Part shown: positions 2,641 to 11,068 of the stretch, piece by piece | Layout: every line of letters starts with the position of its first letter | Numbering within the stretch: the first letter of the stretch is position 1 | Assembly: GCA_902783305.1 (NCBI GenBank) | Contig: CACZQU010000514.1 | Coordinates: 1 to 11,068, forward strand | Direction of reading: 5' to 3' | Length of the DNA stretch: 11,068 nucleotides | DNA from: an uncultured Lachnospiraceae bacterium | GTDB taxonomy: Bacteria > Bacillota > Clostridia > Lachnospirales > Lachnospiraceae | The notes under the pieces: generated by a model | Told to the model about the DNA's origin: nothing | What the model saw: only the letters and a program-made list of their open reading frames with translations | Database searches by the model: none | Program-made: the position numbers and the translations under genes

Positions 2641-2681
2641 ACTAAGACATTGGAAACTGATTGGGGAGAGGTGTGGGAAGA

Positions 2682-4079
2682 GTGGATAATCAAAGGAGCT
2701 TCAGCCGTTTTCACCTTGCGATGGATGCTGTCGTGGTAATGAACTCATACCTTCTGGCATGGACGCTTCGCTTTGTATGGCCTTTTGCAGCGACAGCAGT
2801 CAGAGCCAGATCCTTTCAACAGTACATGGGGTACCTCCTTCTGATGGTCCCTCTGTATCTGCTCCTCTATCACGCGTTTTCTCTCTATGAGCCTCTGAGA
2901 ATGCAGGGCAGACGGCTGGTGCTGTCCAATCTCATCAAAGCGAATACGCTGGGAGTGCTGATTGTCATTTCCTTTCTGTATATGACCGATGAGGCCTATA
3001 TCTCCCGGTTTATGTTCGGGATGTTCTATGTGATTAATATCTTTTCGAGCTGGTTGTACCGGATGCTCGTTTTTTACATCGTCCGGGATATGAGACGCAA
3101 GGGGCACAATCAGCGTCAGGTTCTGCTGGTCGGATACAGCAGGGCGGCACAGGAATATATTGACCGCGTGCTGGACAATCCGCAGTGGGGAATCGTGGTC
3201 CGTGGTGTTCTTGATGATGATACCGAGAGAGGGACGGTCTACCGGGGGATCAAGGTTCTGGGCAGGATTGCCAATCTTATGGTGATCCTTCCGGCAAACC
3301 GGCTGGATGAGATCGCCATCACGCTGGGACTGAAGGACTATTACAAACTGGAAGAGATTGTTTCTCTATGTGAAAAATCGGGAGTACATACCAAATTTAT
3401 CCCTGATTATAATAACATTATTCCGACGAAACCATATACAGAGGACATTCTGGGACTTCCGGTCATCAATATCCGTTATGTCCCTCTCACGAATACCTTC
3501 AATGCCCTGGTGAAGCGCACCATGGATGTGACCGGAGCTTTGGCCGGACTGGTGCTGGCTTCTCCCGTGATGCTTCTGGCGGCTGTCCTGATAAAGCTTA
3601 CGTCGCCGGGACCGCTGATTTACCGGCAGGAAAGGGTCGGACTTCACAACAAGACCTTCTGGATGTACAAGTTCCGCTCGATGGAGGTTCAGCCCGAGGA
3701 GGAAGAAAAAAAATCCTGGACGGTAAAGGATGATCCCCGGGTGACCTGGATCGGCAGACTGATGCGCAGAACCAGCATAGATGAGCTTCCACAGCTTCTG
3801 AATATTCTGAAAGGGGATATGAGTCTTGTCGGTCCAAGGCCTGAAAGGCCTTTCTTTGTGGAGAAATTCCGGGAAGAGATTCCGCGGTACATGGTAAAGC
3901 ATCAGGTCCGGCCGGGACTTACGGGATGGGCACAGGTGAATGGATACAGGGGAGATACATCGATTCGGAAAAGAATTGAATATGACCTGTTTTATATTGA
4001 AAACTGGACGATCGGCTTTGATATAAAAATCCTGATTCTCACGATATTCCGCGGATTTATTAACAGGAATGCCTACTGA
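2682..4079 (+). CDS. Undecaprenyl-phosphate sugar-1-phosphate transferase (WcaJ/CpsE type)
   Basis: Predicted initiating enzyme of the pathway: it moves a sugar-1-phosphate from a nucleotide sugar to undecaprenyl phosphate. Numbered from the GTG at 2682, there are four N-terminal membrane segments (about 13-33, 48-66, 86-101, 108-133), a nucleotide-binding-like middle domain starting at [10 protein letters not shown] (147-156), and a C-terminal bacterial sugar transferase domain (about 278-465) with a membrane helix (280-305), YKFRSM (329-334), the catalytic Asp-Glu of SIDELPQ (367-368), LVGPRPE (382-388) and [12 protein letters not shown] (410-421). The length, about 465 residues, is normal for the polytopic class. 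The start is uncertain: TTG 2661, GTG 2673 and GTG 2682 are all in frame after a purine-rich GGGGAGAGG at 2663-2671. The gene follows the glycosyltransferase by a few tens of bases without a terminator. Its stop codon TGA directly abuts a dispersed repeat. Confidence 0.93.
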
Positions 4080-4154
4080 GGGACAGGACCCGGGGAGCGC
4101 GAAGCGCGGAACAATCCGCAGGAGTCATTTTGTCCTGTAATCATCGATTTACAG
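4079..4154 (+). repeat. 76-bp dispersed repeat, copy 1
   Basis: This stretch reappears in reverse complement at 10981-11056, with 63 of 76 positions identical by my hand alignment. The core at 4093-4132 differs at one base only (C at 4119). Visible internal pairing includes GCGC-gaa-GCGC (4098-4107 region), GCGGA-acaa-TCCGC (4106-4119), an outer ACAGGAC (4083-4089) with GTCCTGT (4132-4138), and a terminal CTGTAA/TTACAG hairpin (4135-4154). The element begins on the last base of the sugar transferase stop codon and ends 12 bases before the LCP gene's ribosome binding site, so it fills nearly all of that intergenic space. No T-tract typical of a terminator follows it directly. Identity unknown; a REP-like or 3'-end RNA element is the best guess. 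Confidence 0.85.
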
Positions 4155-10980: not shown

Positions 10981-11056
10981 CTGTGCATAAATGATTGCAG
11001 TGCAAAATGACTCCTACGGATTGTTCCGCGCTTCGCGCTCCCACAATCCTGCCCCT
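10981..11056 (-). repeat. 76-bp dispersed repeat, copy 2
   Basis: Inverted counterpart of 4079-4154, with the 40-bp core at 11003-11042 differing at one base. Here a strong stem forms between GGATTGT (11018-11024) and ACAATCC (11043-11049) around GCGC-ttc-GCGC; copy 1 lacks this stem because its left arm differs at four bases. GGGGC (10977-10981) and GCCCC (11051-11055) could close the whole element. It lies about 45 nt beyond the terminator of the last gene. By analogy with copy 1, its orientation would suit the 3' side of a minus-strand gene beyond the window edge, which I cannot see. Confidence 0.85.
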
Positions 11057-11068
11057 ATATTCGTATTC

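Follow-up and report, generated by a model that had tools for sequence, protein, structure and literature searches.

What is a 76-nt sequence doing in two inverted copies, at non-coding sites 6.9 kb apart, on a single Lachnospiraceae contig? The question is raised by the stretch of DNA analysed here (the window), which is the whole of contig C514, 11,068 nt, from a 2.99-Mb draft genome in 614 contigs that is 82% complete. The original prediction, made from the letters of the window, was of a maintained or recently spread element, perhaps associated with the 3' ends of genes and perhaps able to support inversion of the segment between its copies. A repeat search of the window recovered the pair as described, with 63 of 76 positions (83%) complementary between 4079-4154 and 10981-11056, and the 40-bp core with one mismatch between both copies could be read directly from the window sequence. 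The protein families proposed for the surrounding genes were borne out by Pfam, which identified sugar transferase, LytR_cpsA_psr, GT2 and trypsin-like with PDZ families, as well as a ClpX-type AAA with zf-C4_ClpX and a zinc ribbon.

The pair proved to be a small sample of something much larger. A search of the genome of the window with the 24-base core GGAACAATCCGNAGGAGTCATTTT, at up to three mismatches, gave 86 matches (38 forward and 48 reverse) and none with a reversed-pattern control, so that the two window copies must be members of a large dispersed family; the terminal inverted repeat (TIR) pattern GAYTSCAGTGCAAAA, with one mismatch allowed, gave 109 matches in the same genome versus one with its control. 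The idea of a recently spread element was therefore right in kind, this being a dispersed mobile element, and the copy count that had been proposed as a check came out at far more than two. Such repeats break draft assemblies, and at least 24 contigs of this genome have a core or terminal-repeat match, among those listed, no more than 100 bases from their start. The pattern GGAACAATCCGNNGGAGTCATTTTGCACTGCAA had no match in the genome contig collection, from which near relatives of the window are possibly absent. The GTDB pattern set yielded at least 120 loci, with titles that include Muricomes, Faecalicatena, Blautia, Hungatella, Anaerobium, Konateibacter and Velocimicrobium, and DNA similar to the element was found in one record of the plasmid collection and eight of the phage collection, three stretches of it being included in the flank comparison described below.

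When the copies from the genome of the window were lined up, the full-length form could be recognised as GACTCCAGTGCAAAA...TTTTGCACTGCAATC, about 180-250 bp long and made up of a left terminal repeat, three internal hairpins (H1-H3), an outer stem and a right terminal repeat, with no ORF and no encoded protein. Where both ends could be recognised, lengths ranged from 51 to 250 bp, and in a common 65-bp form in this genome only hairpin 3 lies between the left start and the right end. Read in reverse, the right end is GATTGCAGTGCAAAA, which in the genome of the window matches the left end as an inverted repeat at 12 of 15 positions. The terminal inverted repeats of related Lachnospiraceae are GAT....GGGTCAAAAG, and those of the window's own lineage are somewhat different from them; individual relatives have ends with other letters and the same design (e.g., GATACCAGGGTCAAAAGG with GATGTTGGGGTCAAAAG), which are perfect or near-perfect. 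The loop of hairpin 1 is of the CUUG type, hairpin 3 terminates in GCGAAGC, a sequence known as an unusually stable DNA mini-hairpin, and the internal loop of hairpin 2 is nearly invariant across genera (ATGAG.AAG.AG opposite GCGGATT.CGAAT in alignment A1). Covariation was assessed in 19 of 24 chosen sequences, five having been dropped by the extraction pattern, and 27 of the 37 predicted pairs had both sides changed in at least one sequence.

Some copies in this genome are mosaic. In L052, L091, L096, L108 and L111, ..CTGCATATACCGCG or a close variant of it stands before the core, and in several of these copies GCACGGCAATC..TGTTCCCGCGAGTATA comes after it; together they make up a second repeat class with the same core. 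Another repeat adjoins the element or lies near it in L019, L058, L078, L080 and L119, most of which contain words such as GTTACTATTC..GGTCTGACCTTC..CGCGTGGCTTTAC.

The hairpins H1-H3 are the structure of Rfam's Clostridiales-1, and the element appears to be what Rfam lists as Clostridiales-1 RNA (RF01699), an entry with the same three-hairpin interior. Copies from the genome of the window and from relatives match the RF01699 model from position 1 to 166; the model ends at the outer stem, and the right terminal repeat is left out of it. Among the 29 matches listed in the genome of the window, five were over the cut-off, and in 14 control genomes there was one with a match at E ≤ 1 and none with a match over the cut-off. 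Across a set of 61 genomes, consisting of the window's own and 60 relatives, RF01699 was found at E ≤ 0.001 in 32 and over the cut-off in 28, in 3 of 25 genera. Relatives of RF01699 whose outer stem differs, being GAAAGTCC..GACTTTC or AAAGCCC..GGGCTTT, were seen at L141, L148, L150 and L153 (genomes G052, G030, G032 and G036), in which no right-hand terminal repeat was seen by eye; these are possibly moved by another system.

Read against this anatomy, the two window copies (Table 1) are probably a decayed and a truncated product of the element, respectively, and the element limits as given by the termini differ slightly from the limits of the 76-nt repeat pair. Copy 1 starts with GA and ends in ..GTCCTGTAATC (reverse complement GATTACAGGACAAAA), its left target half is not preserved and reads CCTACT, and a covariance-model search of the window gave no RF01699 match to it among those listed at E ≤ 1. 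Copy 2 is cut by the contig end at 11068, and its left end is lost. Its match to RF01699 (11008-11068, minus strand, E 1.8e-7), cut at the 5' end, scored 45.2 bits, below the Rfam cut-off of 48 because the contig end cuts the copy.

Table 1. The two element copies in the window, their ends and targets, and the genes next to copy 1.
Feature	Position	Strand	Basis
Sugar transferase gene (Bac_transf + CoA_binding_3), ends at copy 1	2661..4079	+	Pfam
TGA stop of the sugar transferase gene, made of target T + element GA where the insertion begins	4077..4079	+	Window sequence
Copy 1, 65-bp short form with hairpin 3 only, probably decayed	4078..4142	+	Length and layout as other 65-bp copies in the same genome
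Right terminal inverted repeat of copy 1, GATTACAGGACAAAA	4128..4142	-	TIR consensus
ATCGAT, right-hand target half of copy 1, fits ATNNAT	4143..4148	+	Consensus in the same genome
Gene of the LCP family (LytR_cpsA_psr), downstream of copy 1, with an assumed start codon	4178..5743	+	Pfam
ATAAAT, target half of copy 2, fits ATNNAT	10987..10992	+	Window sequence
Right terminal inverted repeat of copy 2, GATTGCAGTGCAAAA, exact	10993..11007	+	TIR pattern search
Copy 2: hairpin 2 arm, hairpin 3 and right end of a longer element	10993..11068	-	RF01699 match

The flanks of the wider family carry short target-site duplications. In the genome of the window, 77 distinct copies were analysed (which may leave out some of the 86 core matches), and the 31 with both ends recognised and complete flanks were tested for duplications of 2 and 4-10 bp. 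The 6-bp register stood out (identity 0.64 vs 0.55 in shuffled pairings, z 4.2, 0 of 500 shuffles), the next being a mildly raised 9-bp register (z 2.2), and exact 6-bp duplications were present in 9 of the 31, a test with some noise since at least L036, L061 and L095 had the left end assigned to an inner match. Relatives had their register at 7 bp, with exact 7-mers at 16 of 34 copies (mean of 0.74 and maximum of 5 in 1000 shuffles). Among the matches listed for the GTDB set, exact 7-mers with the consensus ATNNNAT flanked 30 of 53 copies (shuffled mean 1.09, maximum 5), and seven other copies had exact 8-mers (shuffled mean 0.19, maximum 2); two copies are common to the relatives' and GTDB sets, and without these the GTDB counts are 28 and 7 of 51. 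The 121 TIR matches listed for GTDB also included one without flank and 67 without a right end by pattern, of which 24 were no more than 250 nt from the end of the locus, a further 21 had an inner-stem-like end only and 22 had neither. The inner stem was considered as the real right end and rejected, there being no duplications among those 21.

Short forms are flanked in the same way: exact duplications were found at 7 of the 13 GTDB copies of 118 bp or less, among the matches listed, at forms of 95 and 104 bp in genome G034 and, by eye, at single-hairpin and 67-nt forms in genome G010. Mobility thus seems to need the ends of the element and not its hairpins.

Comparison of the flanks of 103 elements with the available loci produced one empty site. 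In Muricomes intestini, a 69-bp element is flanked by ATGCTAT twice (L374), and two further loci, L322 and L295, align gap-free across the junction (148 and 120 columns, ~86% identity) minus the element and one copy of the duplication. The repeat copies at this site differ by ~14%, and the target in the empty copies reads ATGCTGA and ATGCTGC versus ATGCTAT, the differences falling at the last two places. The DNA into which this element inserted is itself a palindromic repeat of ~150 bp, GTAACAGTTCAGCCAT..ATGGCTGAACTGTTAC. In two distant pairs of loci (L169/L374 and L176/L288) the element is seemingly absent from one member, with the alignment stopping 70-120 nt before the boundary, and in the intergenic region shared by L014 and L143 the element is in both genomes, apparently at different positions.

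Insertion also accounts for the position of copy 1. The copy starts at the sugar transferase stop because that TGA is composed of the last base of the target and the first two of the element, and the same boundary TGA was present in 166 of 180 distinct ends with flank in the pooled genomes. In pooled loci of several genomes, where open frames and not verified genes were counted, 12 of 81 incoming frames stopped exactly at the boundary TGA, and the other peaks, at -8 (7), -5 (7) and -3 (4), fell inside or next to the AT-rich target. The 3'-end association that had been proposed holds, then, only weakly, as a frequent meeting of insertions with stop codons. The idea that copies mark convergent gene ends did not hold up. 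For the 40 of 77 copies in the genome of the window with ORFs on both sides (longest-ORF calls of at least 100 codons; the remaining 37 had no near called ORF on one side, or a contig end), the neighbouring ends were stop/start in 18, start/stop in 13, stop/stop in 5 and start/start in 4, so neither an orientation rule nor a preference for convergent ends was seen among them. A called ORF was overlapped by 13 of the 77 copies.

The candidate for the enzyme that moves the element came from G010, in which the end GATGTTGGGGTCAAAAG, identical to the right end of the element in that genome, also occurs ~0.1 kb outside a large ORF, with only one such insertion sequence end on the contig. The ORF matched PF13751 and PF05598, both over their cut-offs, and its best NCBIfam model was the IS1182 transposase NF033551, at 132 bits versus a cut-off of 270; it is because the latter is below its cut-off and the two Pfam families are over theirs that the protein is called IS1182-like. 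Ends of the same design were found beside an IS1182-like transposase gene in six related genomes. Both ends, together with exact duplications of 7 bp (GTAAAAT, ATATTAT, ATTGAAT and ATCTTAT), are present in four insertion sequences of 1855-1892 bp, L253, L260, L256 and L267, with the transposase gene of L256 being interrupted. The duplication of L266 matches at 6 of 7 positions, L270 is a deleted element of 1001 bp with the duplication ATAAAAT, and L254 and L255 have both ends and start at a contig end. In addition, a transposase remnant in genome G035 lies beside GATTGCATCGACAAAA, the right end of the short element in that genome. Relatives of the G010 ORF were present in 9 of the 61 genomes, and 16 plasmid records contained transposase relatives, all at less than 60% identity.

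Searches of the genome of the window (82% complete) for protein relatives and for PF13751 found no IS1182-like transposase, and PF13751 was not found in the copy-rich G034 (83% complete); a relative of this transposase probably once acted in the window's own lineage. For twelve of 20 extra TIR matches in G034, either hairpin 3 or a partner end lay close by, the other eight had by eye no ORF resembling a transposase, and none of the 20 was hit by tblastn with the IS1182-like protein. A further inverted repeat, of 26-35 nt and in a subterminal position, occurs in seven of the insertion sequence loci (L253, L254, L255, L256, L260, L266 and L267). This inner repeat was not seen in the short element, and the two therefore share only ~15-18 bp. 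L247 (genome G005) has the same ends and a different interior that resembles the start of an IS1182-like element (GTACCTTG..), and may have arisen from an insertion sequence of that kind by deletion. An IS256/Mutator transposase (PF00872) was also considered as partner and rejected: it had no match in the genome of the window, it was present in 8 of 37 genomes searched, and at the eight loci examined the only ends seen alongside were matches with 2-3 mismatches, none having 0 or 1.

The ends, the duplications, the empty site and the transposase-bearing elements with the same ends together make it most likely that the element is a MITE which an IS1182-like transposase moves in trans, a reading to which, from comparison of sequences, we would give a probability of about 0.9. 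The DDE transposase of the insertion sequence would bind both ends of the element in trans and insert it at AT-rich sites of the form ATNNNAT, with about 7 bp duplicated, or 6 bp in the lineage of the window.

Other accounts of the copies must be set against this one, chief among them that they are paralogous genes for a trans-acting small RNA or a cis-regulatory RNA. It would suit such genes that 27 of 37 predicted pairs covary in 19 sequences, that the internal-loop bases of hairpin 2 are nearly invariant and that RF01699, typed by Rfam as 'Gene; sRNA', is over its cut-off in 28 of 61 genomes, but the ends of the supposed genes are terminal inverted repeats with flanking target duplications, an empty site exists, codirectional copies lie in both orientations (18 vs 13) and short forms devoid of hairpins have duplications as well. 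We consider RNA genes on their own improbable, and an RNA function of the interior, if there is any, would be cargo on a MITE. Short length, palindromy, a mostly intergenic location and high copy number also recall a REP/BIME-like element moved by a RAYT (Y1 HUH) transposase. Y1 transposition is not known to leave target duplications, however, and the finding of duplications here, along with an IS1182-like DDE element whose ends are of the same design and whose duplications are of the same length, makes that mechanism very unlikely. Hardest of all to credit is a role for the pair as a switch that recombines or inverts the intervening 6.9-kb segment. Two copies are indeed inverted on one contig, but they are two of 86 core matches scattered in both orientations, they belong to different length classes, and a Pfam scan of the eight window proteins found no recombinase.

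A MITE moved by an IS1182-like transposase leaves a puzzle in its interior, in that the compensatory pairs and the near-invariant loop of hairpin 2 suggest that something beyond mobility may keep it. As pairing and loop have been kept across genera although hairpin-less forms have transposed, the three hairpins could tentatively be regarded as a functional nucleic-acid module, acting as RNA, or as a DNA structure in transposition or at gene borders, that has spread through the Lachnospiraceae between IS1182-like ends, an idea that we think doubtful. A possible connection is IS1272, of the IS1182 family, which is reported to act on stem-loops; transposases of this kind may thus read palindromes. 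The BOX and RUP elements of pneumococci are modular palindromic repeats with internal hairpins and variants from which modules are missing; their modularity is like that of the element here, and their sequence and host group differ from it.

Among the systems known from the literature, the IS1182 family provides the best NCBIfam match for the partner, which has one large ORF and terminal repeats within 1855-1892 bp. IS1272, a member of that family, is reported to insert by replacing inverted-repeat targets, with no duplication left behind (PMC5678879), whereas the IS1182-like elements here have 7 bp duplicated at ATNNNAT. Bacterial and archaeal MITEs that share only segments of less than 20 nt with their insertion sequence partner have precedent (PMC3852290), and these are likewise short, non-coding and of high copy number, as is the element here, with its ends of ~15-18 bp in common with an insertion sequence. 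It differs from them in having an interior of three hairpins with compensatory changes across genera, not recognisably a deletion remnant of an insertion sequence. Clostridiales-1 itself was listed in 2010 from Clostridiales and human gut, in a table row reading 'y n n' of which the first column is 'RNA?' (Weinberg et al. 2010, PMC2864571). A literature search, outside the 2010 supplements and most subscription papers, found no paper that calls Clostridiales-1 a MITE or transposable element. Rfam types RF01699 as gene/sRNA, whereas the element described here has transposon ends, duplications and a likely insertion sequence partner. Rfam itself has pointed out a clear relationship between one plant microRNA family and a MITE (PMC4383904), and Clostridiales-1 would be the bacterial counterpart of this case.

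If this reading is true, RF01699, a candidate structured RNA of 2010, would be recast from an sRNA gene to a transposable element with a likely transposase and defined ends, and its copy number and scattered locations would be explained. It would also provide a directly testable pair of transposase and substrate, and raise the question of why a MITE preserves an elaborate structure that is seemingly unneeded for its mobility.
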